Of a stretch of 64,000 nt of DNA, positions 1-63,290 are shown piece by piece; positions within the stretch are counted from its first letter, which is position 1, and each line of letters starts with the position of its first letter. The position numbers were made by a program, and so were the translations under genes. This DNA comes from Crenothrix polyspora. GTDB taxonomy: Bacteria > Pseudomonadota > Gammaproteobacteria > Methylococcales > Methylomonadaceae. Under the pieces are notes generated by a model, which did not search any database, had not been told where the DNA came from, and saw only the letters and a program-made list of their open reading frames with translations. The stretch covers positions 1 to 64,000 of the forward strand of contig NZ_FUKI01000092.1 in NCBI RefSeq assembly GCF_900163755.1, written 5' to 3'.

Positions 1-95
1 AACCGTTCGCACTGAGCTTGTCGAAGTGTGCCGTTCATGCTTCGACAAGCTCAGCACGAACGGGGCTGTAACTGTCCTAAGTTGAAAACGCTGTA
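1..95 (+). mobile_element. MITE A copy 1 (cut by window edge)
   Basis: This is the right-hand 93 bp of a MITE A element followed by TA at 94-95. Compared with the full copy at 5634-5758 it lacks the first 31 bp, which lie outside the window, and has one base deleted near position 63. It contains the palindromic core (CTTCGACAAGCTCAGCACGAACG type) and the terminal TGAAAACGCTG. It ends 7 bp from the stop codon of the secreted protein gene at 103-1767, which reads toward it. Confidence 0.85.
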
Positions 96-5286: not shown

Positions 5287-5611
5287 AATAATTCCTTAGA
5301 CAGTGGTGGTTTGTTCATATTTGATGGGTTTGGAAGGATAGAAATGTTTAAAGGTAAATGAATTATAGTGGATAAATAATTGATATGAATTACATGAAGA
5401 TAGATACTTTTGCCATGATAATATGACAGTTGATTCAGCAACCCGCTTAAGCCAAAACAATATTACAAAAAGCTATTTGTGACAAACCTATCGAACCTTG
5501 ATCGGCTTAACTACTCACCTTTCGACAAGCTAGGGCGAACGGATAATTTTCTAAAACTCGACAGTGGCGATCCACTTAAAGCGGGACAAAAATAATAATG
5601 TTTAAGTAGGC

Positions 5612-5826
5612 TAGTACTCAGTCAATTTTGATACAGCGTTTTCACAGTTCAATAGTTACAGCGTAACCGTTCGCACTGAGCTTGTCGAAGTGTGCCGTTC
5701 ATGCTTCGACAAGCTCAGCACGAACGGTGGCTGTAACTGTCCTAAGTTGAAAACGCTGTATGTCGGGTATGTTTTTGGCCAGCGTGAGATATACGAGGTT
5801 TTAAAAACCCCACAAGTCTTTGCAAC
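5612..5826 (+). repeat. Repeat E copy 1, split by MITE A copy 2
   Basis: The left part (5612-5633, TACTCAGTCAATTTTGATA) and the right part (5761-5826, starting TGTCGGGTATGTTTTTGGCC and running through ACGAGGTTTTAAAAACC) align, when joined, with the reverse complement of 9781-9869. The two halves are separated only by MITE A and one extra TA, so this is an interrupted copy. Its function is unknown. Confidence 0.65.
5632..5760 (+). mobile_element. MITE A copy 2 with TA flanks
   Basis: The element is 125 bp (5634-5758), from CAGCGTTTTCACAG to TTGAAAACGCTG, flanked on both sides by TA (5632-5633 and 5759-5760). The terminal inverted repeats match over about 12 bp. The centre is a long imperfect hairpin with arms around TTCGCACTGAGCTTGTCGAAG and CTTCGACAAGCTCAGCACGAA. 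There is no coding capacity. Comparison with repeat E copy 2 shows that a single TA was present before insertion. Confidence 0.88.
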
Positions 5827-5842
5827 ATACGACAGAACAAAC

Positions 5843-5943
5843 TGTAGGGTGCATTCGCCGCTAGGCAATCCGCCACAATACGTCTACTGGACATTGGCAT
5901 TGAGCGTTGCTTGGCGGTTTGCTGGCGCAAAACCACCCTACAA
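5843..5943. repeat. Repeat C copy 1 (GTAGGGTG...CACCCTAC)
   Basis: This intergenic repeat is bounded by the inverted 8-mers GTAGGGTG and CACCCTAC. The interior carries ATTCGCCGCTAGGCAATCC and a complementary-like GGCGGTTTGCTGGCG. Related copies lie at 19232-19265, 39451-39596, 40326-40358 and 47967-48045. ORFs that cross it have no family resemblance and were not called. Confidence 0.65.
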
Positions 5944-6080
5944 ACTCTTTGCAACATCCAACAAAACTACATTGGCTAACGACTAGACTACCTGCTGTTT
6001 GACAATTCAGCATATTCAACGAGTGGGTCAGTTGGGTTGAGAAAAGCGTTACCCATTCTACATTTTAAAGCAGATACAAT

Positions 6081-6495
6081 TGACCCCCTCACCTAGCCAA
6101 AGCAAGGGGATTCCTTATTGCTAAGGAACGCGCACGAAATAACTTAAGCAAGTTCATGCTTCGACAGGCTCAGCACGAACGGTGGTAGCGTTTAAGTTGT
6201 TCAAGTTATTTCATGCACGTTCCTAAGGAGCAGGCGAACAGCGCTATTACCCGCTACTAACAACATTGTTGCACCGCTCACTTCACAGACTAGCCCCGTC
6301 AGCCCAACGGTTGATTTCATGATTGCTGTCACAAGGCGAGCCTAAGCATCCTCTGGTAGCAGTCTTGATTGTAGCGAATATAGCCGCACTAAACAAGAGA
6401 CTGAACCCTTTTAAGGGTTCAGTCTCTTGCCGTGCCGGTCACTTTTATCCCCGCCCTAAAGCAGCAAGATTCTTCGCTCATTTGGATAAACTGCC
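6081..6495 (-). mobile_element. Repeat D copy 1: decayed IS200/IS605-type 3' end, carrying MITE B
   Basis: On the minus strand this stretch matches 62788-63101 on the plus strand over its length, apart from the MITE B insertion at 6125-6223. Its outer end (6084-6109) is a right-end-type hairpin preceding GGATTCC on the plus strand, like the hairpin that follows tnpB in IS200/IS605 elements. Reading frames on both copies share NHEIN, ADGASL-stop and SERCNN, suggesting a common decayed coding tail. A perfect palindrome, GAACCCTTTTAAGGGTTC, lies inside. Assignment to IS200/IS605 is from memory of right-end hairpins and is tentative. Confidence 0.5.
6122..6226 (+). mobile_element. MITE B copy 1 with TAA target duplication
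   Basis: A 99-bp element (6125-6223) runs from GGAACGCGCACGAAATAACTT to the inverted counterpart AAGTTATTTCATGCACGTTCC and is flanked by TAA at 6122-6124 and 6224-6226. The uninterrupted sequence GCTAAGGAGCAGG survives in the D copy at 62788-63101 (minus strand), so this is a genuine insertion with a 3-bp duplication. It is non-coding. Its centre holds the same CTTCGACAGGCTCAGCACGAAC core as MITE A. Confidence 0.88.
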
Positions 6496-6540
6496 TATAT
6501 TTTTAGAAAAACAATAAAGGATGGCTACCCTGTACGCGAT

Positions 6541-9619: not shown

Positions 9620-9748
9620 TACAGCGTTTTCAACTTAGGACAGTTACAGCCACCGTTCGTGCTGAGCTTGTCGAAGCATGAACGACACACTTCGACAAGC
9701 TCAGTGCGAACGGTTACGCTGTAATTATTGAACTGTGAAAACGCTGGA
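9620..9748 (-). mobile_element. MITE A copy 3
   Basis: This is a full 125-bp MITE A (9622-9746) in inverted orientation relative to copy 2. One flank is TA (9620-9621); the other is GA, so the expected second TA has mutated or been lost. It lies 205 bp downstream of the metalloprotease stop codon and next to repeat E copy 2. Confidence 0.87.
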
Positions 9749-24783: not shown

Positions 24784-24888
24784 TTAGGAACGCGCACGAA
24801 ATAACTTGAGCAAGTTCATGCTTCGACAGGCTCAGCACGAACGGTGGTGGCGTTTAAGTTGTTCAAGTTATTTCATGCACGTTCCTTA
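24784..24888 (+). mobile_element. MITE B copy 2 with TTA target duplication
   Basis: A 99-bp element (24787-24885) with the same GGAACGCGCACGAAATAACTT and inverted CGTTCC end as MITE B copy 1 and only a few base differences inside. It is flanked by TTA at 24784-24786 and 24886-24888. The TNA target agrees with copy 1 (TAA). MITE A copy 4 lies 75 bp further right. Confidence 0.87.
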
Positions 24889-24960: not shown

Positions 24961-25061
24961 TACAGCGTTTTCAACTTAGGACAGTTACAGCCACCGTTCG
25001 TGCTGAGCTTGTCGAAGCACGAACGATTACGCTGTAACTATTGAACTGTGAAAACGCTGTA
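24961..25061 (-). mobile_element. MITE A copy 4 (28-bp internal deletion)
   Basis: Inverted MITE A of 97 bp (24963-25059) with TA on both sides (24961-24962, 25060-25061). Relative to copy 3 it lacks 28 bp covering one arm of the central hairpin, so the long stem cannot form. Its end is 1 bp from the stop codon of the CotH-like gene. Confidence 0.87.
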
Positions 25062-28537: not shown

Positions 28538-28666
28538 GACAGCGTTTTCACAGTTCAATAATTACAGCGTAACCGTTCGCACTGAGCTTGTCGAAGTGTG
28601 CCGTTCATGCTTCGACAAGCTCAGCACGAACGATGGCTGTAATTGTCCTAAGTTGAAAACGCTGTA
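28538..28666 (+). mobile_element. MITE A copy 5
   Basis: A full 125-bp element (28540-28664). The right flank is TA (28665-28666) but the left flank is GA (28538-28539), so one target TA has changed. It lies 64 bp downstream of the purA stop codon and about 170 bp upstream of rimO. Confidence 0.87.
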
Positions 28667-56695: not shown

Positions 56696-57655
56696 GTGAA
56701 GCGCACAATACTAAAAACAGCCGAGGCCTGTACATTATTATTCATATTATCCGCCAGTAGCAATGTCTATGCCGGAGCCATTCATGATCAAGACAGCTTT
56801 ACGACCCGTATTGCAGAAAATGATGACAACTCTACACTGACTGCGCTAGGCATGACTATCAATTTTTTTGGTACATCCTACAGTGACGTATACATTAACA
56901 CCAACGGCAATGTATCTTTTGATGCGGCGAATGGCAATTATCAAACAGGGCCTATTTCTAGTATAAACAAATCTATTTTGGCACCTTTTTTTGCTGATGT
57001 TGATACTCGCACAGGTAATACCATAACGTACGGTAACACAACTATTAATGGTCGCACTGTATTCGGTGTCAACTGGATAGATGTAGGGTATTACAACAGG
57101 CACACCGACAAGCTCAATAGTTTTCAGCTTATTATTACTGATCGCAACGATACTGGCCTAGGTAACTTCGATTTCGAATTTAATTATGACAAAATTCAAT
57201 GGGAAAGCGGTGATGCCAGCGGAGGTATAAAAGGCTTGGGTGGCAGTTCTGCTTTATCGGGCTGGACAAACGGTTCACAGACATACCATGAATTCGCAGG
57301 ATCAGGCATTAACAGTGCATTGCTAGATGGCAGCAATCTGGCATTAACCACGAACACCAGCAATTCAAATACACCTGGGCATTATATTTTTACAATGCGT
57401 AATAGTGTTTTGGTTGATTCTGACATAAACGGTGCATTGTTAGACAACGACAATCTGGCATTAGCGAGTAGTGCAATTGATTTTAATACACCTGTGAGCT
57501 ATATGTTTACAATGAGTAATAGTGTTTTGGTTAACCCCATCGCAGTATCAGAACCTAACACATTGATTTTAATTAGTATAGCAATGCTTGGCTGCGCTAT
57601 TAAGCGTTATAATTTACGTCCTTTAGTAGACAAGTTTTTTAGTTGCCACGCTTAA
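56696..57655 (+). CDS. Exported nidogen-like domain protein with PEP-CTERM-type tail
   Basis: I start at the GTG at 56696 (AAAGGA 7 nt upstream), giving 319 residues with signal peptide VKRTILKTAEACTLLFILS...VYA. A nidogen (NIDO) domain covers about 35-200 (NTNGNVSFD, LAPFFADVDTRTG, FGVNWIDVGYY, FELIITDR-type strands). A 39-codon segment (INSALLDGSNLAL...FTMRNSVLV) is tandemly repeated at 57308-57424 and 57425-57540. The end has SEPNTLILISIAMLGCAIKR, a PEP-CTERM-like sorting signal with Ser-Glu-Pro, but 13 residues follow the basic pair. Surface location via exosortase is inference. MITE A copy 6 follows 31 bp later. Confidence 0.75.
   Translation: MKRTILKTAEACTLLFILSASSNVYAGAIHDQDSFTTRIAENDDNSTLTALGMTINFFGTSYSDVYINTNGNVSFDAANGNYQTGPISSINKSILAPFFADVDTRTGNTITYGNTTINGRTVFGVNWIDVGYYNRHTDKLNSFQLIITDRNDTGLGNFDFEFNYDKIQWESGDASGGIKGLGGSSALSGWTNGSQTYHEFAGSGINSALLDGSNLALTTNTSNSNTPGHYIFTMRNSVLVDSDINGALLDNDNLALASSAIDFNTPVSYMFTMSNSVLVNPIAVSEPNTLILISIAMLGCAIKRYNLRPLVDKFFSCHA
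57308..57540 (+). repeat. Tandem 117-bp duplication inside the nidogen-domain gene
   Basis: Two in-frame copies of a 39-codon unit (pattern N-x-ALLD-x2-NLAL...NTP-x2-Y-x-FTM-x-NSVLV) lie head to tail. The DNA copies differ at several sites, so the duplication is not recent. Confidence 0.8.
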
Positions 57656-57686: not shown

Positions 57687-57815
57687 TACAGCGTTTTCAC
57701 AGTTCAATAGTTACAGCGTAACCGTTCGCACTGAGCTTGTCGAAGTGTGCCGTTCGTGCTTCGACAAGCTCAGCACGAACGGTGGCTGTAACTGTCCTAA
57801 GTTGAAAACGCTGTA
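57687..57815 (+). mobile_element. MITE A copy 6 with TA flanks
   Basis: A full 125-bp element (57689-57813) flanked by TA on both sides (57687-57688 and 57814-57815), the same orientation as copy 2 and nearly identical to it. It lies 31 bp after the stop codon of the nidogen-domain gene and about 260 bp before the orphan adaptor gene. Confidence 0.88.
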
Positions 57816-62577: not shown

Positions 62578-62787
62578 ATCTACCGAAGCGCTCAAGCCAA
62601 GCGGCATTTTGCCCCAGTTTAACTCAACAACCTCTAACCTGTGGTAACGTCTTTGCTTAAATTTCTGTAAGTATTCACTTCCCCATAACGTGCCCGTGAG
62701 AGTACGCTACGAAACGTAAAATCAGATAAATCCGTTAGCAATTCCTCTAAATTGTGCTTTTTTTGTCAGAATTTACTGGTTTTACAC

Positions 62788-63101
62788 AATTTATCCAAGT
62801 GAGCGAAAAACCCCGCCGCTTTAGGGCGAGGATGAAAACGACCCACACTGCAACAGACCGAACCCTTAAAAGGGTTTAGTCACTTGTTTAGTGCGGCTAT
62901 ATTCGCTACAATCAAGACTGCTGCTTAGGATCGCTACTATGACGGCAATCATGAAATCAACTGTCGGGCTGACGGAGCCAGTCTGTAAAGTGAACGATGC
63001 AACAATGCCGTTAGCAGCAGAAACCAGCAGGTAATAGCACTGTACGCCTGCTCCTTAGCAATAAGGAATCCCCTTGCTTTAGCTAGGGGAGGAAGTCGAT
63101 G
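62788..63101 (+). mobile_element. Repeat D copy 2: decayed IS200/IS605-type 3' end (no MITE B)
   Basis: This stretch matches repeat D copy 1 (6081-6495, minus strand), but without the 99-bp MITE B; the empty site reads CCTGCTCCTTAGCAATAAGG. The right end is a hairpin, GAATCCCCTTGCTTTAGC followed by TAGGGGAGGA, like IS200/IS605 right ends. A second similar hairpin lies at 62809-62834. In frame, NHEIN, ADGASL and SERCNN are shared with copy 1. There is no intact transposase or TnpB ORF. The identity is tentative. Confidence 0.5.
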
Positions 63102-63290
63102 CCATATTCTCTAAAAAATAAGCACGTTAATTTTAGGCCATTATCTGAACCATTCACTGTATTGTGCATTAGTATTGTAAGTTTTAATATTTTATAGTAT
63201 TTTGTCGATTGAGCCGAGCCGTCACCGCAATAATACGGCATCATTAAGCTCCCGTTTTTGCTATAACCTAAAATTAATGAGGAGAACTGA

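Follow-up and report, generated by a model that had tools for sequence, protein, structure and literature searches.

Two short MITEs with unrelated ends, here called MITE A and MITE B, lie close together in a stretch of 64,000 nucleotides from the Crenothrix polyspora genome (contig NZ_FUKI01000092.1, positions 1 to 64,000; hereafter the window) and are built around what looks like one and the same palindromic core (Table 1), which raises the question of how a single sequence came to lie inside two transposition systems. An earlier note, made from the letters of this DNA, had described a near-identical core between termini and targets that are unrelated (CAGCGTTTTCA and TA in A, GGAACG and TNA in B), and had weighed a REP-like palindrome inserted into separate elements against an exchange of ends. 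The consensus sequences bear out this description: those of A (24 copies of 125 bp) and B (19 core-bearing copies of 99 bp) have in common GTTCATGCTTCGACA[A/G]GCTCAGCACGAACGGTGG, with 33 of 34 positions identical, each element possesses its own target duplication, and the TNA of B is either TAA or TTA. The answer that we regard as probable is that several IS-derived MITEs took up a REP-type hairpin at their dyad centre, and that different transposases then multiplied it as passive cargo.

Table 1. Positions in the window of MITEs A and B, their cores and target duplications, further copies and neighbouring repeats
Feature	Position	Strand	Remarks
MITE A	5634..5758	+	125 bp, CAGCGTTTTCA...TGAAAACGCTG; imperfect terminal inverted repeats of ~31 bp
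Target duplication of MITE A	5632-5633 / 5759-5760		TA; empty site in D copy L049:7144-7257
BIME core of MITE A	5667..5727	.	two opposed REP hairpins, CCGTTCGCACTGAGCTTGTCGAAGTG and CATGCTTCGACAAGCTCAGCACGAACGG
34-nt stretch common to A and B, in MITE A	5697..5730	+	33/34 identical
MITE B	6125..6223	+	99 bp, GGAACG...CGTTCC; ends match a 1.3-kb ISAzo13-type element of a relative
Target duplication of MITE B	6122-6124 / 6224-6226		TAA; empty paralogous site in 62761-63180
Single REP core of MITE B	6152..6185	+	copy of the shared 34-nt stretch
MITE D copy, left end, broken by MITE A	5612..5633	+	
Rest of the interrupted MITE D	5759..5842	+	unrelated core around ACGAGGTTTTAAAAACC; right end unrecognisable; from alignment with L049
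MITE A, truncated by window start	1..95	+	
MITE A copy	9622..9746	-	unequal flanks, TA and GA
MITE B copy	24787..24885	+	
MITE A copy, one REP only	24963..25059	-	97 bp, internal deletion
MITE A copy	28540..28664	+	unequal flanks, GA and TA
MITE A copy	57689..57813	+	
Diverged inverted paralogue of ~5981-6520	62761..63180	-	without MITE B (empty site)

The core takes two forms, namely a pair of REPs facing each other (a BIME) in A and in the families C and D described below, and one REP in B. Its 15-nt inner part, GCTCAGCACGAACGG, is matched 14 times in the window at up to 3 mismatches (100 shuffles give 1.08 matches on average and at most 4), and the 3.92-Mb genome contains 420 copies of the core motif CTTCGACARGCTCAG, as against 0 of the reversed pattern. 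It combines a conserved loop, TTCGACARGCTCA, with a covarying inner stem and a conserved CGAACGG, the latter forming the right outer side, which is kept even though it is often unpaired, like a head or tag. Among 141 distinct 33-mers from five source groups the three innermost pairs are paired in 124, 116 and 109, where shuffles reach at most 85, 75 and 89, pair 5 barely exceeds its shuffle maximum (107 versus 105), and pairs 4 and 6-9 stay within theirs, with 6-9 paired in about half of the 33-mers; these shuffles ignore shared descent, which may inflate the signal, and the class-wide group contains chance matches in genes. Compensatory change would appear to have preserved the hairpin form of the core, though relatedness among the sequences may inflate this impression. 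Folded as single strands, the whole of MITE A and the whole of MITE B stand well apart from shuffles (z of -10.9 and -4.6), the right REP of A does hardly better than they do (z -1.7), and the single REP of B folds no better (z -0.84) and has no self-complementarity either, so that the argument for the hairpin is one of covariation. The same covarying inner pairs and retained hairpin form are what one would expect if selection for a terminator or protein-binding hairpin had produced the same core in different MITEs; however, 33 identical positions of 34, including the loop and the head, are too many for such convergence, and the cores evolve no slower than the ends in A or B. We accordingly agree with the earlier note, which had called convergence unlikely, and find it scarcely credible. 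The GTAG or CGTC tag of known REPs was absent when the core was read for it, the head being CCGTTCG, and CGTC is seen where the stem starts with TCC. No exact match to a 27-nt core string was found in viral_contigs, and four spellings of the 15-nt string were not found in the literature searched, which mostly leaves subscription papers outside.

We examined the settings of the core in 1,303,747 bases, or 33%, of the genome, taken in two parts. The first (1,014,950 bases; 57 stretches and the window) came from contigs chosen for a known motif or a RAYT-like match, and part of it served to define end patterns that allow 1 to 5 mismatches; to the second (288,797 bases; 20 stretches), taken from other contigs, these patterns were applied unchanged. 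With 17 and 5 clusters at stretch edges set aside, the two samples contain 70 and 22 interior core clusters, of which 63 and 20, or 83 of 92 overall, lie between matching ends of one family, A, B, C or D. Two clusters, both in the first sample and none in the second, have one B and one A end; six (5 and 1) have a single recognisable end; and one, in the second sample (0 and 1), has no recognised end and is a truncated C-type core beside a B. A clean solo core was not found among these 92 clusters in the part of the genome covered. An earlier count under another rule had given 89 clusters for the first sample. A test that makes no use of the end patterns, and scores how well the two flanks match each other as inverted repeats, places 56 of 68 interior clusters beyond the 99th percentile of shuffles with a 10-base trim; an earlier version with a 17-base trim cut into short ends (beyond the 99th percentile: 41/69 in G000, 4/24 in G005, 2/34 in G003 and 1/7 in G023).

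The REP core is found in no fewer than four MITE families whose ends are unrelated, two of which the earlier note had recognised. Detection in the first sample gave 27 pairs of A ends, or 25 distinct elements once two pairs that overlap a true copy are left out, all with the core and 22 of the 25 with TA on both sides. For B there are 20 paired elements (core in 19; identical TAA or TTA flanks in 17), for C 16 (core in 9; identical 8-bp flanks in 8 and agreement at 7 of 8 positions in 4 more) and for D 13 (core in 4; TA flanks in 7); as a control, the same flank comparison placed 20 bases outward succeeds in 2/27 pairs of A, 1/20 of B, 0/16 of C and 2/13 of D. The remaining 7 C elements mostly have GTAGG(T/G)TGGG-type cores, and the remaining 9 D elements have cores resembling ACCTACGAGGTTTTAAAACCTCGTAGGT. 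Genome-wide, A ends are matched 234 times (up to 2 mismatches) and B ends 191 times (up to 3 mismatches). A and B are short, bear terminal inverted repeats and occur in many copies with target duplications and empty sites, as is characteristic of MITEs. In all four families the core sits near the centre of the element (at most 8.5 bp off, two overlapping A pairs excepted), and this would be in keeping with A, B, C and D being kin that descend from one ancestral element whose ends changed gradually, a course that the earlier note had allowed for. Such descent is nonetheless very improbable: the ends, the target sites and the duplication lengths (2, 3, 8 and 2, respectively) differ, intermediate ends were not seen in the 1.3 Mb, an ISAzo13-type element of a relative has the ends of B, and B, C and D ends also surround unrelated cores.

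Empty sites reveal how these elements move. For MITE B, the paralogue at 62761-63180 reads CTTATTGCTAAGGAGC where the occupied site reads CTTATTGC-TAA-(B)-TAA-GGAGC; for MITE A, the D copy of locus L049 reads TTGATATGTCGGG where the window has TTTTGA-TA-(A)-TA-TGTCGGG. These paralogous empty sites show that A and B have each transposed as a whole unit together with the core. At locus L052 an A contains, in its right end, an inserted B that has TAA on each side. The comparison of core with end divergence that the earlier note had proposed gave, in full-length copies, 24 differences in 1,488 core positions versus 21 in 1,512 end positions for A (p 0.65) and 8 in 646 versus 24 in 1,235 for B (p 0.35); core and ends have thus diverged equally within each family, which indicates that they were amplified together.

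As for the enzymes that might drive this, an element of 1,327 bp in the relative G011 (L225:1501-2827) has B ends and encodes a 404-residue PF07592 (ISAzo13-type) transposase (E 5e-105). MITE B, which shares its ends and its TAA/TTA duplications with ISAzo13-type elements but differs from them in having no gene, is on this match probably an ISAzo13 derivative. The only PF07592 match in the Crenothrix polyspora genome is a piece of 84 bp that lies where a 3.6-kb contig ends and is cut short by a stop downstream, and an intact copy may therefore have been lost in assembly. The TA target of MITEs A and D presumably reflects an IS630/Tc1-type transposase, and the 8-bp duplication of MITE C one that we take to be of the IS1595 type. 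Family searches recovered no parent transposon for A, C or D in this genome: those for DDE_3 and IS1595 gave two matches each, the fetched loci having no flanking pair of the right ends, and at one IS1595 locus (L166) A and B MITEs are close by, with no C pair. Long-range pairing of ends at loose settings mostly returned chance matches and was excluded from the conclusions.

A RAYT, the HUH tyrosine transposase for which the earlier note had suggested a search, might still be inserting the REP into MITE centres. Matches to the RAYT family NF047646 are present in 90 of 101 genomes of the order, and the Crenothrix polyspora genome, with a RAYT at C36:5961-6395, has them in three places, one of which spans almost the whole profile; moreover, RAYT and IS200-type enzymes work on single strands according to the available portions of PMC3733652 and PMC4853749, which would suit entry at a hairpin tip. 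Against this, the core motif (up to 1 mismatch) is near just 1 of 54 RAYT loci checked among the better-scoring matches (30 and 24, each taken with at most 1.5 kb of flanking DNA per side), at a distance of about 1.2 kb, and we rejected the link. The motif is likewise absent from four PF01797 loci of the Crenothrix polyspora genome. Many of the first 30 RAYT loci are by eye flanked by GTAGG-type palindromes instead, a crude pattern for which matches 7 of the 54 loci and 21 of 500 random pieces. Together with the lack of a clean solo copy among the 92 interior clusters and the equal divergence of core and ends within A and B, this leaves ongoing RAYT-mediated insertion quite improbable.

The related genomes separate the ends from the core. 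The B-end pattern (3 mismatches) is found in 40 of 151 genomes and in 21 of 47 genera, and the A-end pattern (2 mismatches) in 3 of the 151, namely that of Crenothrix polyspora, G087 and G035. B ends enclose the REP in G001 and G005, and a variety of other contents elsewhere: G004, G008 and G018 have 25, 28 and 11 B-end matches and entirely lack an exact TTCGACARGCTCA; B ends surround a GTAGGTGCGG core in G002, GGAGTGCAAGC and CTCCCTCTCC cores in G016 (the GGAGTGCAAGC type also in G122), and CATGAAGGACATGAAG in G042, with a similar core, by eye, in G018; and further B-enclosed cores include one in both G008 and G056 and others in G046 and G055. Several fetched loci of relatives have one B end only and were left unclassed. 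A-like ends in G087 surround sequences without the REP. When 28 elements picked by hand are grouped by similarity, their cores fall into 12 groups, of which the REP group has members from all four families, and B is represented there and in five other groups; 19 of the 28 cores are self-complementary at p<=0.05 and nine, including the single-REP cores of B, are not.

Conversely, relatives and plasmids also have the core outside larger elements. In sampled stretches 22 of 27 core clusters of G003 and 19 of 23 of G005 have no detectable TIRs by the 10-base-trim test (5/27 and 4/23 pass), counts that include misses, since the test also fails for 12 of 68 clusters in G000, where ends recognised by motif flank 63 of 70. 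Some of the G003 and G005 copies occupy two more MITE-like frames, with GGGAACCTCTAAAAATT and CCTAAAAACCGCAGTTGAG ends. Plasmids of Moraxella osloensis and Comamonas antarctica have intergenic REP pairs that are about 80% identical to the A core and lack A ends. Exact core matches are present in 131 of the 369 genomes of the class, and number more than 20 in 12 of them. The solo cores that the earlier note had sought are therefore matched in relatives and plasmids by copies with no detectable ends, though in the 92 clusters of the present genome there is no clean case. Of the two courses which that note had proposed, the entry of a REP-like palindrome into separate elements agrees best with the unrelated ends, with the other cores enclosed by B, C and D ends, and with cores elsewhere that have no detectable ends. 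G003 also contains REP arrays (a tandem one from L123:12634, and one from L124:4948) of up to 18 regularly spaced units (2 mismatches), in which MITE ends are unrecognised.

We also scanned genome_contigs (84,980 species genomes) for nearly empty chassis, defined by two B-type inner ends at most 20 bases apart, and obtained six records. One, L308, which is the L210 element of G056 in a record titled Methylococcaceae, is 54 bp long and consists of two 27-bp ends placed back to back, its flanks TGA and AAA forming no clean duplication. L310, from a MAG titled Lachnospiraceae, is 55 bp long with TTA at both flanks, and L305, from a Desulfocapsa MAG, is 69 bp long with the ends separated by 15 bases. 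L306, also from a Desulfocapsa MAG, has similar inner ends 13 bases apart but a different terminus, GGGGTCGG, and the B terminus is absent from L307 and L309. Bare B-type chassis hence exist but are rare. L310, L305 and L306 are, in their own right, very short ISAzo13-like elements with nearly abutted ends from outside Methylomonadaceae. A 53-bp B-like pair in L209 was rejected as belonging to a larger element of the G008 type.

The clusters with mixed ends bear on the other course, by which recombination or gene conversion through the palindromic core would have moved it between A and B and joined different ends. Two interior B/A hybrids, C29:33487 (L153) and C32:17917 (L155), and an A/D hybrid at a contig edge (C5:23) speak for it, although each interior hybrid is a single case and the draft assembly has frequent breaks within A and N gaps in REPs, which bears on the hybrid calls themselves. 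L153 is flanked on either side by TAA, whether as a duplication or by chance, and L155 by TTA and TAT; with patterns that differ in this way, the flanks leave it undecided whether the hybrids have moved. The shared 34 nt reaches a few bases past the hairpin, a point in favour of an exchange of ends; however, older B copies and G001 differ after CGAACGG (GAGTGG, AAATGG), which makes the shared TGG short and probably late. Furthermore, G001, of the same genus (88% complete), already has the REP in its one B locus (L247) and 0 A-end matches, so that A need not be the source of the REP in B, and A has a REP pair where B has one REP. Taken together, the hybrids suggest that recombination through the shared core occurs, apparently rarely; the exchange of ends envisaged by the earlier note thus seems to take place, in 2 of the 92 clusters as B/A hybrids, but it is not what best fits the shared core, and we consider it unlikely as its source.

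Capture of a REP-type hairpin by separate MITEs, the explanation that we prefer, would proceed as follows. The chassis would consist of two IS ends, at whose dyad a hairpin repeat enters; the ends are of the ISAzo13 type with a TNA target in B, of a type with a TA target in A and D, and of one with an 8-bp duplication in C. REP hairpins, single or as an inverted pair, would have been captured independently from a common pool of repeats, with entry at the hairpin tip, possibly through single-strand-specific insertion or through template switching in the replication of the palindrome. After capture, ends and core would be amplified as one unit by the chassis transposase acting in trans, the REP multiplying as passive cargo with no transposase of its own, and recombination via the shared core would at times join an A end to a B end. 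No two closely related loci showed the capture step itself. More tentatively, and with somewhat less than even confidence, we suggest that MITEs of this family might be modular carriers, in which a bare palindrome made of two abutting IS ends takes in unrelated hairpins at its tip again and again, such that RAYT-less REPs ride on any available DDE transposase and cores cross from one transposition system to another.

Some parts of this arrangement have precedents. REPs and BIMEs are described in the available portion of PMC3733652 as imperfect palindromes of 20-40 nt in high copy number, often in inverted pairs and with an unpaired motif at one end, and the core resembles the GTAG and CGTC superfamilies in palindromic form, high copy number, inverted pairing and the unpaired conserved end; it differs from them in its CCGTTCG head, its longer loop and in having a RAYT beside only one of the checked loci. 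REP dimers inside longer palindromes are already known in two species: the same portion of that paper (2013) reports that many GTAG-15 dimers of A. variabilis and all CGTC-1 dimers of H. neapolitanus lie in longer palindromes, that the outer palindromes were never found apart from the REPs, and that the CGTC repeats may be mobilised by a broad spectrum of transposases. In contrast to those cases as far as they are presented there, one REP here occupies four MITE families with target duplications (and empty sites for A and B), and a single MITE chassis carries several unrelated cores. Like the bacterial MITEs in the available text of PMC10969869, A and B are short and gene-free, with terminal inverted repeats, a target duplication and a transposase supplied in trans; their interior, unlike that of such MITEs, is an interchangeable and mostly palindromic sequence common to several families.

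REPs are also reportedly targets of IS that insert inside them, which is likewise an association of a REP with a transposable element, but in the present case it is the element that contains the REP and takes it along. An example of a GTAG REP as an IS1111 target, in QMITE2 of Coxiella, is given in the available text of PMC10969869, the main text of which has no words beginning with nested, mosaic or chimer. Our literature search, which mostly leaves subscription papers outside, found no description of one REP common to several MITE families among the matches listed, and queries on RAYT or REPIN in MITEs, nested or composite MITEs, ISAzo13 MITEs and Methylobacter miniature repeats likewise returned no report of such an arrangement among the matches listed. 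How REPs that have no associated transposase spread is an open question, and riding on MITEs suggests one way. With one REP amplified in four MITE families, and one chassis with many cores across relatives, the idea can be tested with a mini-transposon assay. REP counts can, moreover, reflect bursts of MITEs instead of REP transposition. If MITEs indeed act as modular carriers, they would offer a general route for RAYT-less REPs, a matter left open in the available portion of PMC3733652.

Several further observations concern the window and its assembly. An Rfam scan of 5400-6520 gave only matches below the gathering scores of the families; one of these, to Yfr11 at 6390-6504 on the minus strand (32.8 bits against a gathering score of 44, E 0.0047), lies in the duplicated segment and is probably due to chance. 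This segment belongs to a diverged inverted duplication of about 400 bp, relating 5981-6520 to 62761-63180, from which the empty site of MITE B derives. Assembly breaks seem to have been caused by the repeat, as position 1 of the window and the contigs C5, C7, C16, C18, C24 and C32 begin in or just before a MITE A core, and N gaps fall within REPs (L138, L151). Beside the nest of D and A, at 5480-5590, there is an apparent decayed C-type MITE with a degraded REP at about 5521 and a C end at about 5566-5590. Finally, 114-nt repeats form a tandem pair, 75% alike, at 57302-57532, immediately ahead of a MITE A.
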